From Aggregatilineales bacterium (GTDB taxonomy: Bacteria > Chloroflexota > Anaerolineae > Aggregatilineales > Phototrophicaceae), in NCBI GenBank assembly GCA_029975765.1, contig JARKOK010000046.1:1-34151 (forward strand): a stretch of DNA of 34,151 nucleotides. Reading direction: 5' to 3'. A program made the position numbers and the translations under genes. The notes under the pieces were generated by a model. That model did no database searches. It saw only the letters and a program-made list of their open reading frames with translations, and had not been told where the DNA came from. This document shows, in pieces, positions 6,375 to 24,460 of this stretch (position 1 is its first letter; every line of letters starts with the position of its first letter).

Positions 6375-7235
6375 ATGTTGATGAACATGAGGGATTTGCT
6401 GGCGGTAGCCCACGCAAATCATTTCGCTGTGCCCGCTTTTAACATGAGCAACAATATGCTGCTCCGGGGTGTGCTGGAAGCCTCTGAAGAGGCGAACTCG
6501 CCGGTCATCCTTGCCATTCATCCAGATGAGCTGGCGTTTGTCCGTCCGGCGTTTGTGAAGGCCGTTATCGAAGAGGCCCGCACAACCTGCATTCCGGTCT
6601 GCATCCACCTGGATCATGGCGCCAACATCAAGCAGATTATGGAAGCCATTCAAGCTGGCTTCACGTCCGTCATGATTGATGCCTCGACCCAACCGCTTGA
6701 AGAAAACATTGCTATCAGTAAAAAGGTCGTGGAGCTGGCTCACGCTGTCAACGTTTCCGTCGAAGGTGAGTTAGGCACCATCGGCACCACCAGCCGCCAG
6801 GCAGAAGCCGGAACCGACGACATCATTTACGTGAATCCCAACGATGTTGAAACTTTTGTTCACTCCACTGGCGTGGACACCCTGGCGGTAGCGATTGGGA
6901 CGGCTCACGGCCTGTATCCCAAAGATCGGAAACCCAAATTGAGACTGGATTTGTTGAAGGAGATCACCGCCAGGGTTGATATTCCGCTGGTGCTTCACGG
7001 TGGTTCCGGTAATCCTGATGAAGAAATCGCGATGGCGGTTAAGCTGGGTATCAACAAGATCAACATCTCCAGTGACATTAAGGATGCCTTCTACCAGAAG
7101 TGCCGTGAAGTGCTGGCCGACACCGGACTGTATGAGCCGCTGATGATCTACCCGGCCTGTATTGACGCCATGAAGAAAGTCGCTCACCACAAGATTGACC
7201 TCTTTGATGCGACTGGCAAGGCGGTACTCTACTAA
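6375..7235 (+). CDS. Class II (zinc) ketose-bisphosphate aldolase, fructose/tagatose type
   Basis: Class II aldolases cleave a ketose 1,6-bisphosphate, or a related keto-sugar phosphate, to dihydroxyacetone phosphate and an aldehyde, using Zn2+. The 286 residues contain the family marks: PAFNMSNN near the start, the catalytic Asp and a zinc His in IHLDHG (D80, H81), SVEGELG (129-134), the zinc His in GTAHGLYP (H178), LVLHGGSG (zinc H208, phosphate loop) and KINISSDI. Length and motifs fit GatY/KbaY/FbaA/IolJ equally well, so the exact substrate is open. TGGAGAAA sits 6-13 bases before the ATG. The gene is in the same operon as the transporter and a sugar kinase, so it probably acts on the kinase product. 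Confidence 0.9.
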   Translation: MLMNMRDLLAVAHANHFAVPAFNMSNNMLLRGVLEASEEANSPVILAIHPDELAFVRPAFVKAVIEEARTTCIPVCIHLDHGANIKQIMEAIQAGFTSVMIDASTQPLEENIAISKKVVELAHAVNVSVEGELGTIGTTSRQAEAGTDDIIYVNPNDVETFVHSTGVDTLAVAIGTAHGLYPKDRKPKLRLDLLKEITARVDIPLVLHGGSGNPDEEIAMAVKLGINKINISSDIKDAFYQKCREVLADTGLYEPLMIYPACIDAMKKVAHHKIDLFDATGKAVLY

Positions 7236-7296
7236 AGCAGATTCTCGTGGGTCTTCAGGGGAGACTCAACAGGATGTCCCTCTAACCACAAAGTCC

Positions 7297-7324
7297 ACAG
7301 GGACGGCAAGAATGCCGTCCCTGT
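7297..7324 (+). repeat. Intercistronic 11-bp perfect hairpin
   Basis: ACAGGGACGGC and GCCGTCCCTGT flank a six-base loop (AAGAAT) between the aldolase and kinase genes. No T-run follows. It may tune expression of the kinase or mark mRNA processing. The kinase frame is open through it, but a coding role is doubtful. Confidence 0.6.
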
Positions 7325-7353
7325 TACTGACGAACAAGGAATCAGGCTGCGGC

Positions 7354-8538
7354 ATGAAGCAAAAAATTGCCCTGGGCTTTGGCAATAACATTGACTACGA
7401 AATTGTGTGGGATTCCAGGGTTATAGAAGACCTGATCACGCACTACAACATCCGTAATGCCGAATTGGATGTTAATCGGGTCATCACCGGCGAACGTGAT
7501 CTGGTGATCTCCATCCTGAGTTTCTTAAAGCTCGGCAGCGGCGGTGAGCGTTTTGTCGCTTCGTCGGACATCATTGAGCAGTTTTCGCAGAAGTTTGCCA
7601 AAAAAATCACCCTGGGCGGAACCAGTGTGCGTGCGGCCATCGCCATGCGAAAACTGGGGGTTACGTCTGCCCTGCATCTCGTCACCATTAATGACCATGT
7701 TCGCCGCCTGATTCCGCAGGACAGCCCTTACGTTTGCAGCAGCGCCCAGGATAGTTCGTACCCGCACCTGATTGTGCAGTTTGGCAGCGCCACGCGCGTC
7801 AAAGCCGGCGACATCACCATCTGCACCGCGCAGGCGAATCGGCTCATCTACCACAGTGATACGGACAATATCACGATGAGCCTGAATGAAGCCTTCGCCG
7901 ACCTGCTTACGGACGCTCAGGTACTGCTGGTTTCCGGCTTTAATGCCATGCAAAGTGAAACTCTCCTTGCCCACCGGTTGGAGTCTGTCTTGAAGATGAT
8001 GACAAGGCTGCCTGAAGACGCGGTGGTCTTTTGTGAGGATGCCGGTTATTACGAGCCGGCATTCAGTCAGATTATTTACCGCACGTTAGCTCAAAAAATG
8101 ACCATTTTAAGTCTTAACGAGGACGAACTTCAGGGCTATGTCCATACGAAGCTGGATTTACTCGATATTTTTCAGGTCACCCAAGCCTTAGCGGAACTAC
8201 GAAAGCTCCTCCCTATACCTATCATTGTGGTCCACACCCGGCATTGGGCGCTGGCCTATGGCGAGGGAGCGACGAGGTTTTCACACGCCCTCAAAGCGGC
8301 GGTCACGATGGCAACGACCCGCTTCTGCTACGGAGATGATTTCACCGTAGATAATTATAAGGCCGTAGCGGCGCTTTCCCCTCATGAAGCACATGCAGCC
8401 TTTGCCGATGCCCTGAACCGACTCCCCGGCGACCACATTTGTTGTGTTCCAGTCGCGCAGGTCCAACCCACCGTTGCAACAACGGTGGGGCTTGGCGATG
8501 CCTTTGTTGGCGGATTCCTGCCGGCGCTGGTGACATGA
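7354..8538 (+). CDS. Sugar kinase of the ADP-dependent phosphofructokinase/glucokinase family
   Basis: This 394-residue protein looks like a ribokinase-fold kinase of the ADP-PFK/GK family (best known from archaea and, as ADPGK, animals). Seen features: GFGNNIDYE at the start, the sugar-side GGTSVRAAIAMRKLG, LLVSGFNAM, the NXXE metal motif in SLNEDEL, VVHTRHWAL, and near the C-terminus the catalytic GXGD motif GLGDAFVGG (D382). Family assignment from these motifs is fairly secure; ADP rather than ATP as donor is only inferred. The ATG at 7354 has a poor ribosome site; the frame is open back to 7195 but overlaps the aldolase and a hairpin, so the short form is preferred. As the last gene of the operon it would phosphorylate the imported (or already monophosphorylated) sugar before aldolase cleavage. 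Confidence 0.8.
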   Translation: MKQKIALGFGNNIDYEIVWDSRVIEDLITHYNIRNAELDVNRVITGERDLVISILSFLKLGSGGERFVASSDIIEQFSQKFAKKITLGGTSVRAAIAMRKLGVTSALHLVTINDHVRRLIPQDSPYVCSSAQDSSYPHLIVQFGSATRVKAGDITICTAQANRLIYHSDTDNITMSLNEAFADLLTDAQVLLVSGFNAMQSETLLAHRLESVLKMMTRLPEDAVVFCEDAGYYEPAFSQIIYRTLAQKMTILSLNEDELQGYVHTKLDLLDIFQVTQALAELRKLLPIPIIVVHTRHWALAYGEGATRFSHALKAAVTMATTRFCYGDDFTVDNYKAVAALSPHEAHAAFADALNRLPGDHICCVPVAQVQPTVATTVGLGDAFVGGFLPALVT

Positions 8539-8626
8539 TAGTATCTCAGCCAGCAGACTGATAAATCAGCCAAAAATCGGTTATGAATTAGAAGTGCAAG
8601 GAGCGTAGGAGCAGAAAACGCAAAGA

Positions 8627-9985
8627 TTAAGGCCCCTTGGCTGGCCGAACCAGCACAGTATCATCGCCAACCGCAACCGCATCCGTCGCGCCATCGCCAG
8701 TAACGTCAGCAAAAAATGTACCGCGCCTGCCCCAAAAAGCTGCTCCCGTCCAGTCTTCAGGCGCTCCAAAGTGCGTGCGACTAGAGGGTCTGACTATGAT
8801 CCTATTGTCGTTCACGGCGATAGCGTCGGCTGCACCATCACCCGTTACATCAGCAAAGAAAGTGCCCTGCGTACCGTAAAACGCCACGTCAATCCACATC
8901 TGCTCAGGAATGAACTGTGAGCCGTTTGACAGTCTGACCATAACCGCAGCATCGTTTACGACAATGGCGTCTGCCCTGTCATCACCATTTACGTCAGCAA
9001 AGAAAGTGCCCCGCGTACCGGCAAAAACGCCCTTCGTCCAGTCTTCATTCGGGTTGAAGCGTGTGCCAGTAGATCGTCTTACCGTTATCCTGCCGGCATT
9101 GTTGACGATGGCGTCCGCTTTGCCGTCACCTGTTACATCAGCAAAAAATGTGCCCTGCGTACCGTAATATGGCCCATTAGTCCAATTTTCGATCTCAAGA
9201 AAAAGCGTGTTGTCCGATCGTCTGATCAGCACCCCCTCATCAACAACGGCGATCGCATCAGCCATCCCGTCGCCGGATACATCAGCGAAGTATGTGCCGC
9301 GCGTACCATAAAACGCGTTTCTCGACCAGTTTTTAAGAGGCAGGAACTGCGCGCCGTCCGATTGCCGGACGACCACCACTCCGATCTCATTGACGACGAT
9401 GGCATCTGCTCGACGGTCACCTGTCACGTCGGCGAAAAATGTGCCAAGCGAGCCATAATAAGCGCCCTTCGTCCAATCCTGCTCCGGGCTGAAGGCAGGC
9501 CGGTCGCGCAGAAAAAACACGACACCCACGATGACCAGCACCACCGCTACACCCACTGCGATGATCCACCAGGGGAACGGCTTCCGCGCGGGATTCGGTG
9601 GTTCTGGAACGGGCGATGTCGCGCTTACAACGACGGTGACGGCTGGCCCTTTCGTCAGCGTTTCGTCGGGGTTAGTGACCTCAAGCATGTTCAGAAGAAA
9701 GATGTAGCTGCCCGCCGGCGCATCAGGTGGTACGATGATCTGGAAACTGTACTGCTGAACACCACCTGCGGGAAAATAACGTTCGGCATCGCCGTTCATT
9801 GTGAGCCAGGGCGACAGACGGGCGTCCCGCAGCTCTACGACAGCACGCCCGCGCAGTCCGCGTCCTGACTGGTTGGTTACTGTAAAAGCTGCCTCGCCGC
9901 GTCGCTTCTGTTGATCAATAGTGATTGTTGTCGAAGTAGCAGTAATATCAAACAGTGTGGTTACAAACGCCTTTTCCTGTTCCAT
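8627..9985 (-). CDS. Single-TM protein with Ig-like N-domain and six FG-GAP/VCBS-like repeats
   Basis: The function is unknown. The 452 residues comprise a beta-rich N-terminal domain (about 10-120) resembling bacterial Ig/CARDB folds (AAFTVTNQSGRGLRG, PPDAPAGSY), a Pro-rich linker, one membrane helix at 139-159 preceded by ARK, and six repeats of about 48 residues (166-452). Each repeat carries (T/R)GTFFADVTGDGxADAI, the Asp-rich calcium-binding signature of FG-GAP/VCBS blades, plus an initial (E/D)WT and a central VRxS. There is no cleavable signal peptide; with positive charge before the helix the repeats should face outside. The gene has its own good promoter at 10097-10125. The stop is 88 bases from the convergent kinase gene. 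Confidence 0.8.
   Translation of the reverse strand: MEQEKAFVTTLFDITATSTTITIDQQKRRGEAAFTVTNQSGRGLRGRAVVELRDARLSPWLTMNGDAERYFPAGGVQQYSFQIIVPPDAPAGSYIFLLNMLEVTNPDETLTKGPAVTVVVSATSPVPEPPNPARKPFPWWIIAVGVAVVLVIVGVVFFLRDRPAFSPEQDWTKGAYYGSLGTFFADVTGDRRADAIVVNEIGVVVVRQSDGAQFLPLKNWSRNAFYGTRGTYFADVSGDGMADAIAVVDEGVLIRRSDNTLFLEIENWTNGPYYGTQGTFFADVTGDGKADAIVNNAGRITVRRSTGTRFNPNEDWTKGVFAGTRGTFFADVNGDDRADAIVVNDAAVMVRLSNGSQFIPEQMWIDVAFYGTQGTFFADVTGDGAADAIAVNDNRIIVRPSSRTHFGAPEDWTGAAFWGRRGTFFADVTGDGATDAVAVGDDTVLVRPAKGP
8630..9490 (-). repeat. Six tandem coding repeats of about 144 bp (FG-GAP/VCBS-like blades)
   Basis: The 3' two-thirds of the gene consists of six head-to-tail units, each encoding about 48 residues with the core GTFFADVTGDG. 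Core codons are largely conserved (for example the plus-strand string GTCAGCAAAGAAAGTGCC recurs with minor changes) while linkers vary. Six blades, possibly closing with the N-terminal segment, suit a beta-propeller. Confidence 0.8.
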
Positions 9986-10096
9986 TGTCGAAAACTTGCC
10001 CCCTAAACATCTACTTTTAACACATCTCCCTCAGTTGATCTTCTACACACCCCAAACTACCGCGATACCAAACACAGTCCGTCATATATTTGAAGA

Positions 10097-10125
10097 ACTA
10101 TATTACGATCTTTTTTATTCGTCAA
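10097..10125 (-). promoter_or_regulatory. Promoter of the FG-GAP repeat gene
   Basis: On the minus strand TTGACG (10125-10120) and TATAGT (10102-10097) are exactly 17 bases apart in a locally AT-rich region. The 5' untranslated leader would be about 105 bases long. An AGGGGG ribosome-site-like stretch lies about 12 bases before the ATG at 9985. Confidence 0.65.
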
Positions 10126-10201
10126 TCAACTAAAAGCAGTGACGGGGGGTGAGGGTTGGAATGCAGGGTTATACTGGATGTAAGCTTGTAAAGGAAATAC
10201 C

Positions 10202-12637
10202 TCACTCGCCTGAAAGCGCGTCAATACACTCAATCGTGTTATCCCGGTCAACCCAGGTTGGCAGGTATAATGAAAGGTGTTTAACCGAAGGAGAAACAGC
10301 TGCGGCCCCAAGAAAATGGGCGGCCTGTTCGGGCTTACCCTGCTGGCAGTACAGTTCTGCTGCTTTGATCAGCGCACAGGACAGCCCAGCCTCGAAGTCT
10401 GCGTCCCGATATAGTTCCAGCCCCCGATGGATATACGATATGGCCTCGTCTCCTCGCTTCATCAGCGCCAGCACATGCGCCAGATCGCAGCAGGCAGCAG
10501 CCATGCCAACAATGTTACTCACTTCCTTCCACTGCTCGTAAATGTCCAGATAAGTCTGCCTCGCCGCTTCCAATTGACCTGATTGTGCCAGAGCTTCCGC
10601 CAGACGGCGGCGCGGCAGAAAAATCGTCAGCTTGTCGCGAATCCTTTGCCAATCGTGGGCAGCCTGTTCCAGATCATGCAAGGCGGCTTCATATCGCCCC
10701 CGAAACAGTTCTTTTTCCCCACGTGCGAAAGCCAAAAACCCGGCAGCCCACACATTGCCGTCCGGATCCAATTGAGCAATCTGTTCAATGAGAGCCTCGG
10801 CTTGCTGTATATCGCCCCGGCTGATCGCCAGCGAGCAGCGTCGGGAGAAAGTCGCTACAGCAAGGTATGGTTTACCCACCTGTTGTAACAGAAGACTCAC
10901 TTCCTGGTAGGCCCGTTCGGCCTGTTCCACCTCACCCCGGGTTTCCAGGATAAAGCCGTACCCCATCACGCTGTTGCTCAGTCCGTTGATGTCGTTGATC
11001 GTTCGTGAAATATGGATGCTGCGCTGGCTGCGCTGTTCAGATAAAGCCAGGTTGCCCTGTAGAAACGCCATCGCTGACGCGCCATGCAGCGCCCGCGCCA
11101 TTTCAACGGTAACCGTTTCCGGTGGGACACGGGCAAGAATCGATTCATGCCAGTATTGGCCTTCTACAACATGCCCCAGCTGCCAGTACCAATAAATCGC
11201 GCCGATAATGCTCAGACCCTTCAACGTGCGGCTGGCGCTGGTCAGACTCCACTCCAGCGCGGCGCGGATGTTGGGGAAGGCGCGTTCCAGACGCTGCATG
11301 GTAACGGCGTTATGGTCATCTTCCAGCAGCGGGCTGGTTTTCTCCACCATCTCCATATAGTATTGCAGGTGGCGGTCACGTACTACTTCAGCTTCAGTCG
11401 CACTCCAGTGCGTTTCGAGATACTGCCGCAGCAGTTCGTGGAGTTCGTAGTCGTCATCAGCATTCCGTCTAACCAGCGATTTGTCTACCAACTGGCGCAG
11501 AATAAACGGCGTGATATCCGCAACAGCCTGTGCCGCTTCCAGAGCGAAGCCTCCACGAAAGACCGCCAGCGGCAGCAGGCAGCGGCGTTCCTCGTCGGTA
11601 AGCAGCCGCCAGGAATGGTCAAACACCGCGCGCAGGCTGCGGTGGCGAGCCGGCATCTCCCGTGTCTGCGTTATCAGTAACGCCTGATCGCGCGTTATGG
11701 CTTCCAGAATCTGGCTGTACGACATCACCCGCAGCCATGATACGGCCATCTCAATTGCCAGCGGCAGACCATGCAGCCGCCTGCAGATTTCCGCCACAAT
11801 ACGCACGTTGTCGTTTAGCGAAAATTGTGGGTTGATCTGTACAGCGCGCTGGAAAAACAATTCAACTGCCGGGTAAGGCTGTATGAGGTCGCTATTCTCC
11901 TGCGGATAAGCCAGTCCGTGCAGTTCAAACAACCATTCACTATGCAGGTGCAGACGTTCGCGAGATGTCACCAGCAGTTTGACATTCGGCGCTTCCGCCA
12001 GTATATCTTGCAACACATAATCTTCCAGACTGTTAAGCAGTTGCTCAAAATTATCCAGCACCAGCAGCAGCGACCGGCTTTTGAGGTGGTTGATAAGCTG
12101 ACTTTGAGGGTCAACCGTGTTAAACAGGTTGATGTTCAACACTTTGGCAATCGCTGATATGAGAAATTTGCCGCTGTCCACCGGGGCGAGTGGGACGAAA
12201 TATACGCCGTCAGGAAAATCCGCGAGAACCCGCCGCGCCACTTCAACGGCCAACCGCGTTTTTCCTACGCCGCCCAGCCCGGTGATCGTCATCAGGCGGC
12301 GCTGTGGATCTTGCAGGTCGTGTTGAAGCTGAGTGATTTCAGCTTCTCGTCCCGTAAATACGTTGCTGATGACGGGCAAATTGTGCGGCGTGGTAGTTGT
12401 CCCGGTACGAGGAAGGCCGCGCGCGCTGGCGATAAATTCCTGCCGCTTTTCGGGCGGCAGATGCAGCGCATCCGCCAGAGCCGCTGCCAGGTATGATGAC
12501 GGACGTAATTTTCCGCGCTCGATTTTCCGCAGTGTATCCACCGAACAATGGGCGTACGCGGCCAACTGCGCCTGTGTCCAGTCCAGAGCTTTACGATACT
12601 GTCTGAGCAGTTGTCCAAAGAAACTCTCAGTGGTCAT
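10202..12637 (-). CDS. XRE-HTH / STAND NTPase (NB-ARC-like) / TPR regulator
   Basis: This 811-residue signal-transducing ATPase has an XRE/Cro-type helix-turn-helix at about 7-60 (LDWTQAQLAAYAHCSVDTLR followed by KIERGK), an NTPase domain with FTGRE (94-98), Walker A GLGGVGKT (120-127), Walker B LLLVLDNFE (about 189-197) and TSRERL as sensor. A winged-helix segment (LPLAIEMAVSWLR onward, DHSWRLL, LAVFRGGF) follows, then TPR-like helices from about 470 to 780. This is the common domain order of MalT/AfsR-related STAND regulators, which oligomerise upon ligand binding through the repeats. Length is normal. The ATG has a weak ribosome site; an in-frame TAG six bases upstream rules out an N-terminal extension. 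It is transcribed divergently from the TIR-WD40 gene and is a candidate regulator of it. Confidence 0.88.
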   Translation of the reverse strand: MTTESFFGQLLRQYRKALDWTQAQLAAYAHCSVDTLRKIERGKLRPSSYLAAALADALHLPPEKRQEFIASARGLPRTGTTTTPHNLPVISNVFTGREAEITQLQHDLQDPQRRLMTITGLGGVGKTRLAVEVARRVLADFPDGVYFVPLAPVDSGKFLISAIAKVLNINLFNTVDPQSQLINHLKSRSLLLVLDNFEQLLNSLEDYVLQDILAEAPNVKLLVTSRERLHLHSEWLFELHGLAYPQENSDLIQPYPAVELFFQRAVQINPQFSLNDNVRIVAEICRRLHGLPLAIEMAVSWLRVMSYSQILEAITRDQALLITQTREMPARHRSLRAVFDHSWRLLTDEERRCLLPLAVFRGGFALEAAQAVADITPFILRQLVDKSLVRRNADDDYELHELLRQYLETHWSATEAEVVRDRHLQYYMEMVEKTSPLLEDDHNAVTMQRLERAFPNIRAALEWSLTSASRTLKGLSIIGAIYWYWQLGHVVEGQYWHESILARVPPETVTVEMARALHGASAMAFLQGNLALSEQRSQRSIHISRTINDINGLSNSVMGYGFILETRGEVEQAERAYQEVSLLLQQVGKPYLAVATFSRRCSLAISRGDIQQAEALIEQIAQLDPDGNVWAAGFLAFARGEKELFRGRYEAALHDLEQAAHDWQRIRDKLTIFLPRRRLAEALAQSGQLEAARQTYLDIYEQWKEVSNIVGMAAACCDLAHVLALMKRGDEAISYIHRGLELYRDADFEAGLSCALIKAAELYCQQGKPEQAAHFLGAAAVSPSVKHLSLYLPTWVDRDNTIECIDALSGE

Positions 12638-12705
12638 GGGCAGCTATCTCGCTTTTTGACCCGGTTTTTGTCCTCCTTTTATATCGCTTAGTCTAGCATA
12701 AAACC

Positions 12706-12714
12706 TGTTATAAT
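12706..12714 (+). promoter_or_regulatory. Extended -10 promoter of the TIR-WD40 gene
   Basis: TG-T-TATAAT forms a perfect extended -10 (TG at 12706-12707, TATAAT at 12709-12714). No good -35 is present, as often with extended -10 promoters. It lies in the AT-rich stretch between the divergent STAND and TIR genes. A small inverted repeat, TCATT-CAA-AATGA, directly follows at about 12718-12730. Confidence 0.5.
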
Positions 12715-12791
12715 ATATCATTCAAAATGATTTAAGTGACCCGAACCCTGATGGGCGCTATACCATATGGGAACAACCGTTATCGTTAGCA

Positions 12792-12810
12792 TGTAAACAG
12801 AATGTTTACA
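12792..12810. promoter_or_regulatory. Perfect palindrome upstream of the TIR-WD40 start
   Basis: TGTAAAC-AGAAT-GTTTACA is a 7+5+7 perfect inverted repeat, ending 24 bases before the ATG at 12835 and about 80 bases after the -10. It could be a regulator site, for example for the divergent XRE-STAND protein, or a leader hairpin. It also overlaps the alternative upstream ATG at 12802. Confidence 0.5.
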
Positions 12811-12834
12811 GATCAGGAAAGTCAGGTATCCGTC

Positions 12835-15800
12835 ATGAGCGATGTTTTTATCTCCTACTCCCGCCGTGACAATCAACCCCCACCACCGAACGAAAACGGC
12901 TTTGTTACACGGCTGTGTGCCGCCCTCGAAAACGAAGGGCTGGATGTCTGGATGGACAAACAGGACATCGTTCCGGGCCAGCACTTCCCGGAATACATCG
13001 AAAAAGGGATACAGGAAGCGGACTTCTTCCTGTTCGTGATGAGTCCGAGTTTCCTGAATAGTCCCTGGTGTGTCAAAGAACTTAAACGAGCGGTTGAACT
13101 GCAAAAGCGGCTGATCCCCCTAGTACGCGTTAGGGCGCCTGAAGAAAAAATCGAAGCGGTGGGGGAAACCATTGAGATGCCGCTCCTGCCCGCGCTGGAT
13201 CGTATTTTTGCCGACAACGATGCCGACCCGAATGGTGAAGGCGGCTTCAACACGGCGATTGCGGGTGTTATCCGGGGCATCCGCACCGCCGATCAGGCAT
13301 TCGTCCACGCGCACACGCGCCTGTTGATTCGCGCGCTGGCCTGGGACGAAGCCAACCGTCCCGATTCGGCTACGCTGCGCGGCAAGGATTTAAAAGATGG
13401 TGAAGCCTGGGTGGAAAATGCACAGGCATGGGCGGCAAAAGATCCACGCAATACCCCCCGCCCCACCCTCTTGCAGTGTGATTACATCGCGGCCAGCCAG
13501 CGCGCTGCCAAACGCCGCGCCCGCACCCTGACCGGTGCAGCAACGACTATAGCGGTGGTTGGAATGGTGCTGCTGACGCTGGTTGTCCTGAACGTCAGCC
13601 GCGCCGACGCTGAACAGGCGGTCGCTGCCCGCCGCGCCATTGAAGCTCGCAGCCTGTCCTTAAGCGGCGCGGCAGAAAGCGCGGTTAATCAGGATTATGA
13701 ACTGGCGCTGCGGCTGGCGATTGAAGCCAACACTATTCCCGCCCCACCTGCCCAGGCACAGCAGGTACTGTCCCGTATTGCCTATCGGGGCGGTTCTGCG
13801 CTACGCCATCTGCCAGGCAACGGCAGTACGGTCACCGCCGCTGCCTGGTCGCCGGATGGGCGGACGGCTGTCACAGGAACGTTTGACGGTTATATTCGTG
13901 TGTGGGACAGCCACACTTTCGCGCTGTTGAGCGAATTTGAAGCGTTGGATCGGCGAGTGGGCGGCCTGGAATTCAGCCCGGATGGGCGCGTGCTGCTGGT
14001 GCGAACCTCCGGTGACGATATAATGCAGAATGCGCTGACGCTGTGGGATATGCAAAAGGGTGTTCTGCTGCACCGGTTGGTCGGCCACACCAGCCATTTA
14101 AACAGCGCGCACTTTTCTCCTGATGGCCGGTATATCGTCTCCAGTTCGGATGACGATACGATACGCCTCTGGGATGTGACGAACGGTGAAGAGGTCAGTC
14201 AGGCGACGTTTAGTTTCACCTTCGGCGGTCTGTCTAATCTGGGTCAGGTATTGTTCAGCCGGGACGGGCGTCTGATCTATGCCCTGTCCGACCTGGCACC
14301 CAGCAAACAACGGCCTTTGATGCGTATGTGGGACAACGTGACACTCCAATATCGAGGGGAACAGGCGCTGCACGCTGAAGGTGGCTGTGGGGTGGCCGTC
14401 CTCAGTCCTGATGGTCAGCAGATCGCCTGCTCTCAGGGCTTTACGGCCAGCGCCGCACTGCGCCTGCTCGATGTCCATACTGGTACGCTGATCCGCAGTT
14501 TCACCGATGTGACCGATATCGTAAATAACATTGCCTTTACCCCGGATGGCGAATGGCTGGCAGCAGCCACAGCCCGAGGCGTGTACTTATGGGACGTTAA
14601 AACCGGCGAACGGCTGCACACCTTCCATGAAGGCAGCAACAGCATGATCGCGCTGGCGTTCAGCCCCGACGGGCGTTTCCTGTTAAGTGACCGCGAATCG
14701 CCATCCAACGATGAAGCCACCGTTTGGAAAGCCAGCCTGGACAGCGGCGCGGAAATTGCCCGCACCGTATACGAGGGCTTCGAATATCCGCTTGAGGTCG
14801 CCTATCTGCCGGACGGAAACCGCCTGCTGGTGACAGTACGCGACCATTTTCGCCTGCTGGATGCCGCCGACCAGCAGGAACTGGCGCGGTATACCGCGCC
14901 TGGCCGAGAGATCACAGAGGTGATGCCGCTGTCCGACGGCCAAACCGCGCTGGCGGCTTATCATAACGGCACCCTGATTCGCTGGAATCTCGATAGCGCC
15001 GAGATTATCTGGGACGTGTCACTGTCCACTGCATCGCTGCCGGCGCTGTCCGTTACCGCCGATGGCAGTACGGCAGTGGTGACAGACACCAAAGGCTCGA
15101 TACTGCTGGTGGATACAACAACAGGCAGCCCGGTGCGCGCTTTCGAGGGTTTCGTCTACCAGGCGACGGCGGTGATCAGCCCGGACAGCCAATATGTAGC
15201 CGGTGAAAGCTGTCTTGAACTGGCAGGGGAAAACTGCGCGGCGCGGTCGCTGAAAGTCTGGAATGCCCAGGATGGCACGCTGTACCGGGAACACAACCTC
15301 GGTCGGCTGGGATTTGCCAAACTGGCTTTCAGTCCGGACAGCCATTCGCTGGTAGTAGGCGCAGCCGGCGGCGAAATGCTGCTGTTTGACTTGCAGCAAG
15401 CGGGTGAACCCCGTTCCTTATCCGGCCATAAAAGCTCGATCTGGGATCTCGCCTTCATGCCCGATGGCAGTCAGCTGCTGTCAACGGCTTACGATCAGCG
15501 CATCCTGCTGTGGGATGTGGCTGCCGCTGTCCCCGTGCGTGAAATCATCCTGCCCGCGTTGGTGAACGATCTCGCCATCGCCCCGGATGGCCGAACAGCG
15601 GTTGGCGTCATACTTGGTCCGCTAACGGCGCTGGATCATACCCTGCTGGTCACATGGCGCTTAGATCGCACGCTGGAAGACCTGCTCGTCTGGATACATC
15701 GCAACCGCAATTTCCGCGAACCAACCTGCATCGAACGTATCCAGTACAGCCTGCCACCGTGTGACGCCGCCGGGTTCGCCCCCAGCCGCACGCCGTACCC

Positions 15801-17391
15801 GCTGCCCACGCTGCCCACGCCAACTCTCGCCCCGCCAACCCCGACACCCCTGCCAACCGCAACGGCCACGCCGCAGCCAACGGTGGTCGCACTCGCGCCC
15901 GAACAACCGGCGCAGGCCCCGTTTGCGCCCCTGTATCAGGCTTTCTGGTCGCCGGACGGCACGCGCATCATGGCAGGCAGCAGTGATGGCAGCGTGCGCG
16001 TGTGGGACGCTGTGACGGGTACACTTCTCCATACCTTCAGCGGCCACGACACACAAGGCTTGTCGGCGCGGGGACGCTGGTCGCCGGATGGCAGCAGGCT
16101 GGTCACCATTAACCAGAACAACGCAGCGCGTGTCTGGGACACCCGCACGGGCGAATTGATCGCCACGCTGGCCGGCCACGTGGAGCAGATCGGCGCGGTG
16201 CGCTGGTCACCCGATGGCGCGTTTATCCTCACGGCCAGTGATGATGGTTCTGCGCGCATCTGGGACGCGGCTACCGGCCAGCAAGTGCTGATTATAAGCG
16301 GTCATACGGCAGCAGTCTGGACAGCGAACTGGTCATCGGATGGCAACCGGGTGACAACGGCGAGCGAAGACTACACTGCGAAAGTCTGGGATGCGCGCAC
16401 AGGCTCTGAATTGTTTTCGTTAAAACCGCGCCCGGTCGGCCCGTTTGAATGGATGGGTAACGCTGGTGTCGTTTATGATGCCGCTTTCTCGCCGGATAAC
16501 CGCCGGCTGGTTACCACCACGCAGGCCGGTACAGCAGAAGTATGGGACATGCAAACCGGGCAATCGCTGGGGCAGTATATCTTTGAAGGCGCTGCGGAAC
16601 GGTTTGGATATTTCATCGTCGGAGCGCGCTGGTCGAATGACAATCGCCGCGTTTTGCTGCACGCAATGGACACGAATCCGGTTGTCTGGGATACGCAGAC
16701 GGGTGAAGCGTCGTACACCCTTCAGGGGCATCAGGATTACATCTTCGCCGCCTTCTGGTCGCCGGATGACAGCCGCATTCTCACGGCTGGCGCTGACGGT
16801 ACGATCAAAGTATGGGACGCGGCGAATGGTCAGCTCACGCTGTCGCTGGAGCATCGCGCGAATGTGAGCAGTGCCGTCTGGTCGCCCGATGGCCGCCTGA
16901 TCGCCTCGACCGGCGAAGATGGCACGCTCCGGTTGTGGGATGCGCAAAGTGGACGGGAACAGGCTTTCCTGTTCCCACCCGCCGCCGGTATCGCGTCCCG
17001 CGTCTCGCCGGTTGCGCCAGGGATCGAGGCCGCGCAGATGGCAATCCTCAATGAAATGGTAGAAACGATAGCGCCCATGCTGACGGAAGTTCCCGGCGGC
17101 ACAGCGCGCCTCGGCCAAAACGAGGGTGAATTGCAGGCCGGCATACCGGCCCGCTGGCAGTACAACGGTGTCGCCGGGGAAGTGGTGACACTGCGCCTGG
17201 AAGCGAGTATTGCCGCTGTACTGCGCGTGCTTGCGCCAGATGAAACGGAAATCGCCTCCACCGAACTGCCCGCAGAAGGCGGCAGCACCGGCAGTCTTGA
17301 ACTCACGCTGCCGGCGAACGGCGTCTACACTTTCGAGGTGAGCAGCGCATCGGCTGGCAGTTACGTTCTTATCGTGGAGTCAAAATTGTAA
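12835..17391 (+). CDS. TIR domain - TM - WD40 (14+8 repeats) - PPC-like domain protein
   Basis: A 1518-residue multidomain protein. The TIR domain spans about 1-125: VFISYSRRD, LDVWMDKQDIVPGQ and SPSFLNSPWCVKEL, in which E82 corresponds to the conserved Glu that is catalytic in TIR NADases. A linker ending KRRAR precedes one membrane helix at about 232-253, suggesting TIR inside and the rest outside. I count 14 WD40 units (about 315-955), a Pro/Thr linker (PTPTLAPPTPTPLPTATATP), and eight more units (about 1015-1360, mostly WSPDG-type). The last 100 residues (NGVAGEVVTLRLEAS...GVYTFEVSSASAGSYVLIVE) resemble a bacterial pre-peptidase C-terminal (PPC) beta domain. Start 12835 begins directly at the TIR domain; 12802 is an alternative with 11 more residues. 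TIR-WD40 proteins are known from filamentous bacteria; a defence or sensing role is inference. Confidence 0.88.
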   Translation: MSDVFISYSRRDNQPPPPNENGFVTRLCAALENEGLDVWMDKQDIVPGQHFPEYIEKGIQEADFFLFVMSPSFLNSPWCVKELKRAVELQKRLIPLVRVRAPEEKIEAVGETIEMPLLPALDRIFADNDADPNGEGGFNTAIAGVIRGIRTADQAFVHAHTRLLIRALAWDEANRPDSATLRGKDLKDGEAWVENAQAWAAKDPRNTPRPTLLQCDYIAASQRAAKRRARTLTGAATTIAVVGMVLLTLVVLNVSRADAEQAVAARRAIEARSLSLSGAAESAVNQDYELALRLAIEANTIPAPPAQAQQVLSRIAYRGGSALRHLPGNGSTVTAAAWSPDGRTAVTGTFDGYIRVWDSHTFALLSEFEALDRRVGGLEFSPDGRVLLVRTSGDDIMQNALTLWDMQKGVLLHRLVGHTSHLNSAHFSPDGRYIVSSSDDDTIRLWDVTNGEEVSQATFSFTFGGLSNLGQVLFSRDGRLIYALSDLAPSKQRPLMRMWDNVTLQYRGEQALHAEGGCGVAVLSPDGQQIACSQGFTASAALRLLDVHTGTLIRSFTDVTDIVNNIAFTPDGEWLAAATARGVYLWDVKTGERLHTFHEGSNSMIALAFSPDGRFLLSDRESPSNDEATVWKASLDSGAEIARTVYEGFEYPLEVAYLPDGNRLLVTVRDHFRLLDAADQQELARYTAPGREITEVMPLSDGQTALAAYHNGTLIRWNLDSAEIIWDVSLSTASLPALSVTADGSTAVVTDTKGSILLVDTTTGSPVRAFEGFVYQATAVISPDSQYVAGESCLELAGENCAARSLKVWNAQDGTLYREHNLGRLGFAKLAFSPDSHSLVVGAAGGEMLLFDLQQAGEPRSLSGHKSSIWDLAFMPDGSQLLSTAYDQRILLWDVAAAVPVREIILPALVNDLAIAPDGRTAVGVILGPLTALDHTLLVTWRLDRTLEDLLVWIHRNRNFREPTCIERIQYSLPPCDAAGFAPSRTPYPLPTLPTPTLAPPTPTPLPTATATPQPTVVALAPEQPAQAPFAPLYQAFWSPDGTRIMAGSSDGSVRVWDAVTGTLLHTFSGHDTQGLSARGRWSPDGSRLVTINQNNAARVWDTRTGELIATLAGHVEQIGAVRWSPDGAFILTASDDGSARIWDAATGQQVLIISGHTAAVWTANWSSDGNRVTTASEDYTAKVWDARTGSELFSLKPRPVGPFEWMGNAGVVYDAAFSPDNRRLVTTTQAGTAEVWDMQTGQSLGQYIFEGAAERFGYFIVGARWSNDNRRVLLHAMDTNPVVWDTQTGEASYTLQGHQDYIFAAFWSPDDSRILTAGADGTIKVWDAANGQLTLSLEHRANVSSAVWSPDGRLIASTGEDGTLRLWDAQSGREQAFLFPPAAGIASRVSPVAPGIEAAQMAILNEMVETIAPMLTEVPGGTARLGQNEGELQAGIPARWQYNGVAGEVVTLRLEASIAAVLRVLAPDETEIASTELPAEGGSTGSLELTLPANGVYTFEVSSASAGSYVLIVESKL

Positions 17392-17691
17392 GTAAGTCCC
17401 TTGAAACCATGCCGGTCAACCGCCGGCTATTGAACAGAGTGCGGGGCTTTCCGGTAGATATTTCACCCGCTGGAAGCCCCGCTGTGGGCTTCGCAGGCAT
17501 TGACCGCTGCGGCGTTCGGCTGTGCGGTTCGAGAACATTGTCCCCATAGTACGTTCTACTCTGCACAACTTTTCAACTTTTATGACCCCTATAAGGAACA
17601 TAATGATCTATGACTGTCAAAATACAAGTGTGGAGTGGCTACGGCACACCTGCTATGGCAGGCTGCCCTGGCGCTTTGCACGATAAACTGT
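17392..17691. other. Intergenic stretch between TIR-WD40 and lacI-type genes
   Basis: No supported gene. It holds an imperfect hairpin at 17441-17482 and a small GCCGG/CCGGC repeat at 17411-17427. Two short frames (27 codons from 17603, 34 codons from 17610) follow an AAGGAA but have no recognisable content. The last 65 bases before the LacI gene are the promoter/operator described separately. Confidence 0.6.
17441..17482 (+). terminator. Possible terminator hairpin after the TIR-WD40 gene
   Basis: GCGGGGCTTTCC (17441-17452) pairs with GGAAGCCCCGC (17472-17482) with one bulged base and a 19-base loop. No T-run follows, so it may be a processing or rho-assisted end rather than an intrinsic terminator. 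Confidence 0.35.
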
Positions 17692-17720
17692 TTGACAAGC
17701 CTAACAACTTATAGTACGAT
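17692..17720 (+). promoter_or_regulatory. Promoter of the LacI-led sugar operon
   Basis: TTGACA at 17692-17697 and TACGAT at 17715-17720 are 17 bases apart. The left arm of a 13-bp inverted repeat begins within the -10, so a bound regulator would occlude this promoter. Confidence 0.65.
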
Positions 17721-17756
17721 CTATTTACACGAGTTAGCTATGACGTGTAAATAGAT
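17719..17756. promoter_or_regulatory. Large inverted repeat: LacI-type autoregulatory site or start-masking hairpin
   Basis: ATCTATTTACACG (17719-17731) and CGTGTAAATAGAT (17744-17756) are perfect reverse complements around a 12-base centre containing TAGCTA. The repeat runs from the -10 to two bases before the ATG at 17759. It may be the operator of the LacI-type regulator itself. If transcribed in full it would also fold over the translation start, which lacks a Shine-Dalgarno sequence. Confidence 0.6.
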
Positions 17757-17758
17757 TT

Positions 17759-18787
17759 ATGGCGAAAAAACCTACACAAAATGACGTTGCAAAATTAGCC
17801 GGTGTCTCTCGCGGCACAGTCTCCATCGTCCTGAATAACCGGCTCGATGGCCGTGTGCCGATCAGTGAAGAGACCAGAGAGCGGGTCTTTAAAGCGGCAC
17901 AGGCGTTGGGGTACGCGCCCAATCCGGTGGCCCAGATGCTTAAAGAAGGCAGCAACCGGCTGATCGGTGTGTTCGCCTACGAAGCCACCTTCCCCTATGA
18001 AACCGGAACTTTCTTCTTCCCCCATCTGCTGGGCATTGAAAAAGCGGCCAGCGACCAGGATTACAATGTCCTCTTTTTCACACGCAACCGGAAAAATGCC
18101 GCCCCCAAAATTTATACAAACGGCATGAATTCTCTGCTGCTGGCCGACGGGACGATCATCCTGGGGGGAGCGCCGGATCGTGATGAACTCCTGCGCCTGG
18201 TTGAGGAAGATTATCCGTTTGTCTGTATTGGGCGGCGTGAGGTGCCGGGCTGCCAGGTTAACTGGGTGACTTATGGTTATGAAACCGGCAGCCAGGAAGC
18301 GACCCAATATCTGATTGATCTCGGCCACACCAGCCTGGGTTTTGTTTATGACAGCACCCTGTCCATTGCCGAACCGACTCAGGACAAACTTCGCGGCGTT
18401 CGCAAGGCCGTTGACGCCACCAATGTTCAGCTGATCGTTCTTGATGTCCCACATCACAACGCACTCATCGAAAGGATACACCAGCATCAGATTACCGCCC
18501 TCATCTTCGCCGACCCTACTGACTTTGTCAGCGCCTTTCATCTCCTGCGCGAAAACAACATCGCTATCCCTGGTGACCTTTCGCTCCTCAGCCTGGTCAA
18601 TATTGATGAACAACTGGCCTACGGGGTAGAGCCGACTCACGTTGAAACGGATCGTTACGTGGTGGCAGAACTCGCCGTGAGGACGTTGATTCAATTATTG
18701 GATGGCAGCGTGCAGCCGCCGCAGCAGCATACGGTGGCCTGCCGCTTTACGATTGGCAATACCACCGGGAAACCGGGCAGGTTGTAA
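17759..18787 (+). CDS. LacI-family transcriptional regulator
   Basis: A 342-residue sugar-responsive DNA-binding protein. The N-terminal headpiece QNDVAKLAGVSRGTVSIVLN (residues 7-26), RVPISEETRERVFKAAQALG and the hinge YAPNPVAQMLKEG are textbook LacI. The remainder is a periplasmic-binding-protein fold for the effector, with TRNRKN, GFVYDST and ALIFADPTDFVSAFHLLREN in the usual order. Length is standard. There is no ribosome site before the ATG; translation may be controlled by the inverted repeat that covers the start region. It heads an operon with a binding protein, two permeases and an FAD oxidoreductase, and probably represses it in the absence of the sugar. Confidence 0.93.
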   Translation: MAKKPTQNDVAKLAGVSRGTVSIVLNNRLDGRVPISEETRERVFKAAQALGYAPNPVAQMLKEGSNRLIGVFAYEATFPYETGTFFFPHLLGIEKAASDQDYNVLFFTRNRKNAAPKIYTNGMNSLLLADGTIILGGAPDRDELLRLVEEDYPFVCIGRREVPGCQVNWVTYGYETGSQEATQYLIDLGHTSLGFVYDSTLSIAEPTQDKLRGVRKAVDATNVQLIVLDVPHHNALIERIHQHQITALIFADPTDFVSAFHLLRENNIAIPGDLSLLSLVNIDEQLAYGVEPTHVETDRYVVAELAVRTLIQLLDGSVQPPQQHTVACRFTIGNTTGKPGRL

Positions 18788-18811
18788 GAATACTTATAAA
18801 ACAGGGACAAC

Positions 18812-18834
18812 CGGCTGCCACAAAAGCGCAGCCG
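18812..18834 (+). repeat. Intercistronic hairpin between lacI-type and binding-protein genes
   Basis: CGGCTGC and GCAGCCG form a 7-bp stem with a nine-base loop; an overlapping GCCG-TTAT-CCGGC then TTTT follows. This could act as an attenuator between the regulator and the transport genes. Confidence 0.4.
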
Positions 18835-18877
18835 TTATCCGGCCTTTTGAAAGCTAGAGTTTCGAGGAGAATAGACG

Positions 18878-20257
18878 ATGATTAACCGTATAAAACTCAT
18901 TTTAGTCCTGTGTCTGGTGGTGTCACTGCTCGGTGTTTCCAGCGCGGCGCTGGCACAGGACAGCAGCGGGGTTTGCGGCGGCGACCCGGTAAGTTTTACC
19001 TTTTTGAACTTCTGGGGTGCGGCGCGTGAACCACTGATGAACCAGGTCATTCAGAACTTTCAACAGCAGTGCCCGAACATCACCATTACCAACAACGTAC
19101 AGGGCTTCGATGGCCGTGAGGAACTGGTCGCATCGGCAGTGGCAAGCAGCAATCCCCCCGGCCTGATTATGACCACCCGCATCGAAACCTATAAATTCGC
19201 CCAGGAAGGTCTGATTATCCCGATTTCGGATTACGTCAGCGCCGCTGGACTTGACGTCAACGAAATCTTCTATGAAGGTGAGATCGGCAACCAGATTTAT
19301 GACGACCAGCTCTGGACATTCCCGCTGCCGACGGCGGGGGGTATCACCGGGCTGTACTTCTACAACAAGGATATGTTCAGAGCCGCCGGGCTTGATCCCG
19401 ATGACCCGCCGGAAACCTGGCAGGAACTCGAAACCGCCGTAGCCGCCCTGACCCGGATGGACGCGCTTGGCATTGAGGCGCTGGGGGCCAGTGTATTCAC
19501 GACACAGCCCAGCAGCGAGTCGTTTGCCGCCTGGCTGTACACCAACAATGGCCGACTGTACTCCGATGATGGCCGCACGGCGACCTTCAACAGTCCCGAA
19601 GGTGTGGAAACGCTGCAATGGATGGTGGATTTCACGAATAACCTGAACGGCGGCGTGGAACTGGTGACCGATTTCTGGTCAGGCGTGGAAGAATCCTCCC
19701 CCGACCACCCCTACTTTAATGAGCGGCTGGGCTTCCACTTCGCCAACGTGTCCTTCTTCGGCCACCTGCAAAACAATGATGCGGAGATGTGGGCGGATAC
19801 GGATCGCTGGGGCATCGCGCTTCGCCCCTACAACGGTGAAAACCCGGACGCGAAACCGGCTGGTATTTCCGGCCTGAGCTTCGCCTGGGGGTACGTCATC
19901 CCCGCCAACCTGCCGCAGGATGTCCAGGACGCGGCCTACGCCTTCCTGGAATTTCTGGGCACGCAGAAAGACGGCGGTTGTTACTTCCTGTTTGAACAGG
20001 GCCGGCCTTCTCCTGTGAAGGAATGTAATGAAAACCCGGCCTACTACGATGCCAATCCCTACTGGGATGGCGTGCTGGAATCACTCGCCGTTGATGTCAG
20101 CGTGCCGGTGACACCGGTTCAGGCACAGATCAACGACATCCTGACCCGCGCGGTGGAAGAAGCCATGTTCGGCGCCGACCCGCAGCAGGTGCTTGATCGC
20201 GCCGCCGGCGAAGCGCAGGCGCTGCTGGACGACTACTGGGCGCGTGTCGGCTCCTAA
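18878..20257 (+). CDS. Carbohydrate ABC transporter substrate-binding protein (family 1)
   Basis: A 459-residue secreted sugar receptor. It starts with a signal peptide (MINRIKLILVL..., cleavage after AALA), preceded by GAGGAG 9-14 bases before the ATG. No lipobox cysteine is present. Motifs such as FTFLNFWGAAREPLMNQVI, a TFPLPTAGGITGLYFYNKDM segment and DDPPETWQELETA are typical of COG1653 binding proteins. Two additional cysteine pairs (C6/C15-like GVCGGD, QQCPN, and GGCYF/KECNEN) could form disulfides outside the cell. It differs clearly from the binding protein at 3179, so the two operons probably import different sugars. A 13-bp hairpin follows the stop by 11 bases. Confidence 0.92.
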   Translation: MINRIKLILVLCLVVSLLGVSSAALAQDSSGVCGGDPVSFTFLNFWGAAREPLMNQVIQNFQQQCPNITITNNVQGFDGREELVASAVASSNPPGLIMTTRIETYKFAQEGLIIPISDYVSAAGLDVNEIFYEGEIGNQIYDDQLWTFPLPTAGGITGLYFYNKDMFRAAGLDPDDPPETWQELETAVAALTRMDALGIEALGASVFTTQPSSESFAAWLYTNNGRLYSDDGRTATFNSPEGVETLQWMVDFTNNLNGGVELVTDFWSGVEESSPDHPYFNERLGFHFANVSFFGHLQNNDAEMWADTDRWGIALRPYNGENPDAKPAGISGLSFAWGYVIPANLPQDVQDAAYAFLEFLGTQKDGGCYFLFEQGRPSPVKECNENPAYYDANPYWDGVLESLAVDVSVPVTPVQAQINDILTRAVEEAMFGADPQQVLDRAAGEAQALLDDYWARVGS

Positions 20258-20268
20258 TGTCTAAGTTT

Positions 20269-20299
20269 GTGTCTCCGCGATGGGTAATCGCGGAGACAC
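20269..20299 (+). repeat. Intercistronic 13-bp perfect stem-loop after the binding-protein gene
   Basis: GTGTCTCCGCGAT (20269-20281) and ATCGCGGAGACAC (20287-20299) are exact reverse complements with a five-base loop. No T-run follows. Position and strength mirror the hairpin at 4466-4500 in the other sugar operon, though the sequences are unrelated. Confidence 0.75.
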
Positions 20300-20333
20300 C
20301 CTTCCAGCATGAGATTCTTGCGGAGCAAACACC

Positions 20334-21305
20334 ATGACCTCGCAAAGCCTCGCGACGGCATCACCGGCGGCGGAATTGCCGCTGACCACGCGCCTGCTTC
20401 GGCTGCTGCAAAAGCGCCGTTCCTGGTTCATCGGTTATCTGTTCATCCTACCCTGGCTGGTTTCGCTGGTACTGTTCGATGTGATCCCCTTTGGCATGAA
20501 CCTGTATCTGGGGACGACCAGTTACTCAGTTGGGCCGGTTGCGTCGGCGCAGTTTACCGGATTCGCCAACTACGAACGGATGTTCACTCAGGATGATTTA
20601 TTCGGCAAAAGCCTGCTGAACACCCTCTGGTATCTGGCTGCCAGCGTGCCGCTGACCGTGACACTGGCCTTCATCATCGCGCTGCTGTTGAATACCAATG
20701 TGCGCGGGGTAGGTATTTTCCGAACGATTTATTACATCCCCTCGGTTGTCCCCATCGTCGCCAGTTCCGTCATCTTCCTGTGGATGTTCAACGCGCGTTT
20801 TGGGGCGATCAACCAGCTTTTGCTGGCGTTCGGGTTAACACCGGTGCGCTGGCTGTCCAGCCCGGACTGGGTGAAACCGGCGATGGTAATTGTCAGTCTG
20901 TGGGGATTTGGGGCACAGATGATTATCTTTCTCGCCGCGCTGCAAAGTATCCCGGAGCACCTGTATGAAGCGGTTGCCATTGACGGCGGCGGGTTGTGGC
21001 GGCGGCTGCGCCATGTCACCATCCCCCTGATGACACCGACGATCTTTTTTAATCTGCTGATCGGGCTGATTTCCGGTTTCCAGGTATTTACCATCGCGTA
21101 TATCATGCTCGGCCCCAACGGCGGGCCGCTGCAATCCGGTCTGTTTTACATGATGCACACCTACAACAACGCCTTCCGTTATTTCAATATGGGGTATGCG
21201 TCGGCGCTGTCGCTGGTGCTGTTCGTCATCATCTTCGTGTTCACGATTTTGATGGTCTGGACTTCGAATCGCTGGGTGTATTACGGCGACGAGAGTGATA
21301 TGTAG
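20334..21305 (+). CDS. Sugar ABC transporter permease, MalF/UgpA type
   Basis: A 323-residue membrane subunit with six predicted helices, the first being IGYLFILPWLVSLVLFDVIP. The ATPase-docking EAA loop is EAVAIDGGGLWRRLRHVTIP, followed by LMTPTIFFNL. The C-terminal RWVYYGDE is usual for the UgpA branch. GCGGAG lies 9-14 bases before the ATG. It follows the binding-protein gene and its hairpin by 35 bases and precedes the second permease by eight. No ATPase gene accompanies it. Confidence 0.93.
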   Translation: MTSQSLATASPAAELPLTTRLLRLLQKRRSWFIGYLFILPWLVSLVLFDVIPFGMNLYLGTTSYSVGPVASAQFTGFANYERMFTQDDLFGKSLLNTLWYLAASVPLTVTLAFIIALLLNTNVRGVGIFRTIYYIPSVVPIVASSVIFLWMFNARFGAINQLLLAFGLTPVRWLSSPDWVKPAMVIVSLWGFGAQMIIFLAALQSIPEHLYEAVAIDGGGLWRRLRHVTIPLMTPTIFFNLLIGLISGFQVFTIAYIMLGPNGGPLQSGLFYMMHTYNNAFRYFNMGYASALSLVLFVIIFVFTILMVWTSNRWVYYGDESDM

Positions 21306-21313
21306 GTGTTGTG

Positions 21314-22171
21314 ATGTACGCACATGAAACCAAATCAACTCAAATGATCCGTCATGGCCTGGTTTATCTCATCCTGTCTATGGGCGCGGTCATAATGATC
21401 TTTCCCCTGTTATGGACGCTTTCAACCTCGTTAAAGCCGCTCGATCAGGTCACGCTGACACAGGTGAACCTGATTCCACAGCCGGTGATGTGGTCGAACT
21501 ACACTGAGATTTTCAACCGCGTGCCGATTATTCGGTATGTGGGCAATACGTTGATTATCGTCGCAGCGTCGCTGTTCGGTGGACTGGTCACCTGCTCGCT
21601 GGCAGGTTTTGCCTTCGCACGCATTAAATTTCCTGGGCGTGACATCCTGTTCATGGTGCTGCTGGCGACGATGATGCTGCCTTACGTCGTGCAGCTAATC
21701 CCGCTGTTCGTCATGTTCGATTCGGCGGGACTGGTCGGCACGTTCTGGCCGCTGGTCATCCCCCGGCTGCTGGGGCATAATGCCTTTTATATCTTCCTGC
21801 TGCGCCAGTTCTATAAAGGGCTGCCAGCGGAACTGTTCGACGCCGCCCGGATTGACGGCTGTTCCGAATTCGGTGTGTGGTGGCGGATTGCCGTTCCCAA
21901 CTCCAAGCCGGTACTGGCGGCGGTGGCGATTTTCTCGTTCCAGTTTGCCTGGAACGACTTCCTAAATCCGCTGCTTTATCTCGGCCCCAATCCTGACTTG
22001 TGGACACTGGCGCTTGCCCTGAATGCGCTTAAAGGGGGCGAAGGGCAGATGGTCGAGATGAATTTGCTGATGGTACTGACAATGTTTATGATCTTGCCGA
22101 TGCTGCTGATGTTTGCCTTTGGGCAAAAATACATGGTTCGCGGCGTGGCGTTCTCTGGTGTGAAGGGCTGA
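21314..22171 (+). CDS. Sugar ABC transporter permease, MalG/UgpE type
   Basis: The partner permease, 285 residues. The pattern [19 protein letters not shown] at the start, the EAA-type loop [20 protein letters not shown] then PNSKPVLAA, and the C-terminal [12 protein letters not shown] are standard for MalG-like subunits. The ATG at 21314 is preferred over the GTG at 21311; AGGTG lies 5-9 bases upstream. The stop is seven bases from the FAD oxidoreductase start, so the genes are cotranscribed. Confidence 0.93.
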
Positions 22172-22178
22172 TCGAAGC

Positions 22179-24434: not shown

Positions 24435-24460
24435 CAGCGCACTCATCGTTGCAACTCAAG

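Follow-up and report, generated by a model that had tools for sequence, protein, structure and literature searches.

A predicted single-pass TIR-WD40 receptor from a Chloroflexota bacterium and its multi-copy family

Our analysis indicates that a protein of 1,518 aa encoded in an Aggregatilineales genome (assembly GCA_029975765.1) is best explained as a single-pass receptor that would signal from the outside in through its TIR domain, a reading that we consider likely on the basis of sequence comparison. The window (the whole 34,151-nt stretch of DNA analyzed, contig JARKOK010000046.1) carries the gene at positions 12835 to 17391 of the plus strand, and comparison with related sequences gives good support to the view that the predicted protein is one member of a multi-copy family of single-pass receptors. 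The reading frame contains no internal stop, is open upstream to position 12802, and ends with a stop codon at 17389-17391. Translation from the ATG at 12835 gives MSDVFISYSRRD as the N terminus, which agrees with the start of the TIR domain in relatives. From the N to the C terminus, the chain consists of a TIR domain, a linker, a KRRAR cluster, one hydrophobic helix, 14 plus 8 WD40 blades, and a PPC-like C-terminal domain, as follows.

12835-13137, plus strand: TIR domain (residues 1-101), predicted cytoplasmic; Pfam TIR_2, with invariant S7, Y8, R10, W39, D41, and E82
13078-13080, plus strand: Glu82 codon; aligned to a Glu in Cat1 and SARM1/tir-1 as well as in TLR1
13138-13509, plus strand: conserved TIR-membrane linker (residues 102-225); H160, W170, L181, and W192 invariant
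13510-13524, plus strand: positive cluster KRRAR (residues 226-230), predicted cytoplasmic flank of the helix; net charge drops across the helix
13525-13599, plus strand: single predicted transmembrane helix (residues 231-255); hydropathy, and 92% hydrophobic or small columns at 43% identity
13600-13794, plus strand: juxtamembrane segment (residues 256-320), predicted outside; low-confidence AF2 helices; common to proteins with other or no N termini
13807-15669, plus strand: 14 WD40 blades (about residues 325-945); Pfam, blade profile, AF2, and Foldseek
15670-15774, plus strand: cap following blade 14, containing Cys965/Cys976; the closing Cys pair recurs in relatives
15793-15909, plus strand: Pro/Thr-rich linker (residues 987-1025); P or T makes up 21 of its first 30 residues
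15910-16956, plus strand: 8 WD40 blades (residues 1026-1374); blade profile
17032-17388, plus strand: PPC-like beta-sandwich (about residues 1400-1518); Pfam PPC match under the cut-off, AF2 and Foldseek; PPC above the cut-off in relative L080

Relatives were collected from 40 places, taken by score and frame length from among the matches listed for residues 1-320. The resulting comparison set comprises the window protein (P0001) and 43 relatives, leaving out frames shorter than 700 aa and the 161-aa frame in L094, as well as L099, L104, L106, and L111; the main alignment has 43 rows (without L105). Pfam TIR_2 matched 43 and WD40 matched 41 of the 43 aligned members, and a frame or fusion artifact was rejected because both domains occur in these 41. 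With residues 1-320 as the query, 60 of 61 genomes (own genome included) give matches at an E value of at most 0.001, many of them to the TIR domain only. In four better-assembled genomes, and with split matches of one frame joined, frames of at least 700 aa with a match reaching from the TIR domain past the helix number four each in G024, G009, and G014 and eight in G005. The linker plus helix (146 aa) matches 21 of 301 genomes drawn across the phylum (own genome included); thus, the form is sparse beyond near relatives.

Residues 1-320 also match 11 plasmid records, none covering 80% of the query, and three of the 11 were examined in detail. A Tolypothrix sp. PCC 7712 plasmid encodes a protein (WP_264267989.1), annotated only as a TIR domain-containing protein, in which TIR, linker, one helix at 215, and WD40 repeats follow in the same order. 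Its two cysteines at 986 and 1006 are the only ones after the helix, whereas its length (1,071 aa) and C-terminal tail differ from those of the window protein. The Kovacikia and Bernardetia plasmid proteins share the TIR domain and the linker, but a simple pattern search reveals no WD motif in them; therefore, the linker is not specific to propeller receptors. Scans of genome contigs with the whole protein and with residues 1-330, which depend on exact short-peptide matches, yielded no confirmed relative, and those of viral contigs likewise yielded none.

The window genome (6.0 Mb, 594 contigs) is 95.7% complete with 6.65% contamination. It contains 40 TIR_2 matches in any architecture, 39 of them over the cut-off, which is an unusually large TIR complement for one genome; four lie within 2.9 kb on one contig (C317). 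In the TIR region of the window (12835-13224), K42, V46, D122, and R123 are each found in one of 43 sequences, at positions that are otherwise nearly fixed, and the window protein is therefore a divergent member; the contamination level of its genome bears on its origin.

The original prediction of a TIR domain with a Glu at position 82, a KRRAR cluster directly before a single helix, and WD40 repeats was borne out: Pfam TIR_2 matches residues 4-101 (E = 8.8e-25), KRRAR occupies residues 226-230, and there is one hydropathy peak. S7, Y8, R10, W39, D41, and E82, as well as the linker residues H160, W170, L181, and W192, are invariant in all 43 aligned sequences. A Pfam scan of residues 100-330 gave no family above the cut-off; a match to CobD/CbiB over the helix lies under it and was taken as chance. 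A profile built from 40 family TIRs (the TIR alignment without L079, L084, and L090) was compared with known TIRs and scored best with Cat1 (58 bits), followed by a Toll-receptor-related TIR (48 bits), SARM1/tir-1 and TLR6 (44 bits each), TLR1 (42 bits), and AbTIR (38 to 39 bits).

E82 aligns with the catalytic-position Glu of Cat1 and SARM1/tir-1 and also with a Glu of TLR1. One survey reports the same Glu in over 90% of the TIRs of TLR1/2/6/10 and notes that how often it occurs need not track reported TIR activity (PMC7075850). We therefore rejected E82 as proof of NADase activity: because these receptor TIRs, as described there, carry the Glu too, sequence cannot tell an NADase from a scaffold. 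The proposal that the TIR domain is an NADase or a scaffold thus keeps the Glu at the catalytic position but loses it as a sign of NADase. The Trp of the WxxxE motif is present in the window protein (W78) and absent from 42 of 43 aligned sequences, 37 of which have V, Y, or I there. If the protein does signal as a receptor, we see about even chances that its output is enzymatic and based on NAD+.

The propellers are evident from the Pfam WD40 family (PF00400; E = 4.6e-100, 324 bits versus a cut-off of 27). A blade profile built from the window protein itself found 14 rows between residues 325 and 923 and 8 rows between 1026 and 1374, so that both predicted blocks of blades were recovered. Seven rows of the first block score less than 3 bits, and the count of 14 therefore leans on spacing. 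An AF2 model of residues 256-980 (like the other AF2 model, made from the window sequence only) has 54 beta strands, which corresponds to 13.5 blades of four strands each, although its confidence is low (pLDDT 63, pTM 0.47); the first 14 blades would group into two seven-bladed propellers. Among the 50 Foldseek matches listed for this model, the highly repetitive propeller 2ymu ranks first, followed by Pwp2 and Apaf-1, with TM-scores below 0.45; by name, the propeller matches among these 50 are eukaryotic intracellular assemblies or 2ymu, and the fold therefore says nothing on location. A PADLOC match to HEAT-ARM_XIII at 714-898 (3.7e-24) falls inside the WD40 blades and was taken as a blade match.

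Close cysteine pairs occur in the window protein at 518/532, 793/801, and 965/976, and cysteines adjacent in the chain and 8 to 30 residues apart occur beyond residue 300 in 32 of 44 proteins. The strict cap motif C-x-[ER]R-...-C is limited to 5 of 44. Nine relatives (L067, L068, L070, L081, L082, L085, L090, L091, and L101) have two directly adjacent cysteines near the propeller end rather than a spaced pair.

For the C-terminal domain, the label "PPC-like" appears fairly justified by the model comparisons. The last 120 residues match Pfam PPC (PF04151) at E = 0.027 with 15.8 bits, under the gathering cut-off of 25.9, and the AF2 model of the tail is all beta (pLDDT 64). Among the 50 Foldseek matches listed for it, p24 GOLD domains rank first; the PPC/collagen-binding domains 5sv5 (TMt 0.64) and 3jqw (TMt 0.63) follow below them at E = 1.2e-3, and the Tk-SP subtilase and CBMs are also listed. 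The predicted PPC-like beta domain hence stands as a beta fold with a weak PPC match and falls short of the Pfam cut-off. In tail scans of 10 relatives, SH3_3 was above its cut-off in four, and PPC was above it in one and 3 to 4 bits under it in two; these SH3b and PPC tails support the earlier argument that a PPC tail agrees with a location outside the cell.

A search with the helix and the juxtamembrane part alone recovers proteins whose exteriors are similar but whose interiors differ. Twenty of the 42 listed places were taken, namely, those outside the TIR set, and L106 and L111 were added. Of these proteins, the 20 that have a helix and are not truncated at the end were counted (19 not of the TIR type and the cyanobacterial Tolypothrix protein), leaving out L161 and L167 (contig end) and L165 and the 352-aa L162 frame (no helix). 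Domain scans of nine N-terminal parts identified a Ser/Thr kinase with nSTAND1 in eight and a LuxR HTH with nSTAND1 in one (L167). The eight kinase-nSTAND1 proteins additionally contain a LuxR-type HTH (four), BTAD (one), an extra TIR (one, L106), or nothing further (two). L106 (4893-11633, plus strand; 2,247 aa) combines a Ser/Thr kinase, TIR, nSTAND1, one hydrophobic helix, and WD40 repeats in one chain.

Other exteriors stand alone. In L153, L162, L163, L164, and L170, a positive stretch and a hydrophobic segment lie within approximately the first 65 residues and are followed by the juxtamembrane part and WD40 repeats; as read from the sequences, these proteins have no cytoplasmic domain. 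The whole of L153 was scanned, and its 25 listed matches include WD40-type families and no signaling domain. These five proteins are possibly soluble or anchored coreceptors. All five have two cysteines three residues apart (396/399 in L153), a feature that only L093 shows among the 44 TIR forms. The stand-alone forms would not need an export-like start if they were cytoplasmic, which argues for propellers outside, and the reverse orientation is unlikely because it would put the related kinases and DNA-binding domains outside. Module exchange and the stand-alone forms together would be the strongest independent argument for the topology. The contrast drawn earlier with the usual cytoplasmic WD40 proteins proved to be relative, as the same genomes also encode kinase-nSTAND1 proteins that share this single-pass WD40 layout.

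The exchange of interiors also bears on a first alternative, that the protein is a membrane-tethered adhesin or wall-binding protein whose TIR domain only organizes proteins beneath the membrane, with no ligand-triggered enzymatic signaling. The great length and repetitiveness of the ectodomain, the SH3b and PPC tails of relatives, the failure to find a partner gene in the short flanks compared, and the loss of the WxxxE Trp in 42 of 43 sequences would all suit such a protein. Nevertheless, we consider it unlikely, since the same exterior is joined to kinase, LuxR, and nSTAND1 signaling modules and S7, Y8, R10, and E82 are invariant throughout the 43 aligned TIRs.

With regard to the membrane topology, an N-in/C-out arrangement is very probable. 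In the window protein, the Kyte-Doolittle mean over 19 residues rises to 1.9 in one stretch only (maximum of 2.37, at 234), and all 44 proteins have exactly one stretch of at least 1.9 over the whole chain. The 43 relatives were chosen by similarity to a query containing the helix, and the presence of the helix in them is therefore partly selected. In 43 of 44 proteins, the 15 residues preceding the helix carry a higher net charge than the 15 that follow it (means of +3.5 and -0.2), which supports the original use of the positive-inside rule to place the WD40 and PPC-like parts outside. Helix columns are 92% hydrophobic or small at an identity of 43%, compared with 60% for TIR and 55% for the linker; hydrophobic yet least conserved, the segment is what one expects of a lipid-facing helix, not of a buried conserved one. 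The helix starts at approximately 230 to 245 in P0001, L089, L096, L097, L098, and L102, which have a longer TIR-linker region, versus about 200 to 217 elsewhere.

A second alternative is a cytoplasmic sensor with WD40 repeats inside, in which the hydrophobic segment is a reverse-oriented anchor or a buried helix. WD40 propellers are mostly known as intracellular, and on the Wimley-White octanol scale a TIR core stretch (62-80, -6.4) is slightly more membrane-like than 237-255 (-5.8); therefore, hydropathy alone is insufficient to fix the topology. An even number of cysteines follows the helix in 38 of 44 proteins and in 32 of 35 when one protein per 55%-identity cluster is kept (2 of the 35 have none). 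However, ectodomain cysteines are odd in number in 8 of the 20 related proteins, so that Cys parity was rejected as a rule; a Cys pair exactly 12 residues apart near the end is present in 19 of these 20. Taken together with the stand-alone forms and the kinases and HTH domains that a reverse orientation would expose, the data make a cytoplasmic sensor improbable. The N-in/C-out topology is supported by (i) the charge asymmetry, (ii) Cys pairing, (iii) the Pro/Thr linker, (iv) the SH3b/PPC tails, (v) exchanged interiors, among them kinase, NTPase, and DNA-binding modules, and (vi) interior-less exteriors. The same lines of evidence support the proposal that the protein is a surface receptor whose TIR domain lies inside and whose propellers lie outside the cell.

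Given this topology, receptor-type signaling is quite likely. The propellers and the PPC-like tail would bind a partner on the surface of the cell or within its wall, and binding would cluster or reorient the receptor, with the juxtamembrane segment, helix, and linker relaying the change. Cytoplasmic TIR domains would thereby be brought together, as suggested by the behavior of TIR domains in other systems. Once assembled, the TIR domains might then cleave NAD+, as a signal or for depletion, or recruit other TIR proteins, for which the 40 TIR_2 matches of the window genome provide candidates. Tentatively, and with more doubt than confidence, we can extend this to a lineage that runs a repertoire of paralogous Toll-like TIR-membrane-propeller receptors, sensing non-self or neighbor molecules with fast-changing propellers and answering via NAD+-derived signals or TIR assembly, as an independently built counterpart of the TLRs.

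The layout was initially called Toll-like. As in the animal TLR/IL-1 receptors, there is one membrane helix, with TIR inside and a repeat-built or multidomain binding part outside (described for the animal receptors in PMC7075850), and the profile built from the family TIRs scores 42 to 48 bits with Toll-related, TLR6, and TLR1 TIRs. A cytoplasmic TIR domain and a single helix are thus shared, as predicted from sequence, whereas the LRR type I order is not: the window TIR is N terminal, while TLRs have an N-terminal LRR ectodomain and a C-terminal TIR. The ectodomain consists of WD40 repeats and a PPC-like domain, not LRR or Ig, and no adaptor is known for the window protein. "Toll-like" therefore holds for topology and not for chain order or ectodomain, and the same topology with a reverse order and a different ectodomain makes convergence, not membership, the likely explanation.

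The TIR NADases Cat1, AbTIR, and SARM1, which act inside the cell, have in common with the family of the window protein the TIR fold and a Glu in the catalytic position; 42 of 43 family members differ from them in lacking the WxxxE Trp. PkwA-type WD40 Ser/Thr kinases likewise have a signaling module followed by WD40 propellers, and the kinase-nSTAND1-TM-WD40 proteins of the same genomes share the helix and the juxtamembrane region; both kinase types differ in having a kinase, NTPase, or DNA-binding interior instead of a lone TIR. By analogy, the window protein would work most like the kinase-nSTAND1-WD40 receptors L106 and L111 of its own genome among bacterial proteins. In the available text of the PkwA paper (PMC6113231), we found no statement on PkwA topology.

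Discussion of TIR proteins in bacteria mostly concerns their role as intracellular defense effectors. Among titles and abstract beginnings in the open-access literature, no paper was recognizable as dealing with bacterial TIR-membrane-propeller receptors, which does not prove their absence in print, and the word TIR is absent from the main text of a systematic study of prokaryotic WD40 proteins (PMC5587647). A multi-copy family that combines an internal TIR domain with an external binding module would, if confirmed, mean that bacteria use TIR in transmembrane receptors too, and it would offer a simple system to test whether an outside ligand switches a TIR domain across a membrane.

As for a defense context, the TIR part matches the PADLOC models PDC-S66 (4e-14), ThsB (1.3e-11), bSEFIR, and others, and NCBIfam ThcB4 (E = 1.6e-13). 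An ordinary anti-phage TIR effector from one of the known systems (Thoeris, CBASS, etc.), membrane bound by chance, is nonetheless very improbable, even though bacterial TIRs are common defense effectors: ThcB4 reaches 50.3 bits versus a cut-off of 220, none of the 10 NCBIfam matches of the window protein reaches its own cut-off, STALD (ThsA) has no match over the cut-off in the own genome and 20 relatives (one under it in G010), and no defense partner was recognized among the neighbors scanned beside the gene.

Comparison of the relatives' flanks (about 1 to 3.5 kb each) with the flanking ORFs of the window (7000-26000) at E = 1e-8 identified no shared gene; ORFs resembling histidine kinases by eye adjoin six relatives. 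Upstream of the receptor gene and divergent from it, the window encodes an HTH-NB-ARC-TPR protein of 811 aa (10202-12637, minus strand), which is unmatched in the relatives' flanks. Another propeller-type protein, with FG-GAP repeats and a Dockerin_1 match, is encoded nearby (8627-9985, minus strand). Downstream, genes for a LacI regulator, an ABC solute-binding protein, two permeases, and an FAD-dependent oxidoreductase lie in the same direction as the receptor gene (17759-23789, plus strand) and look like an ordinary carbohydrate operon.
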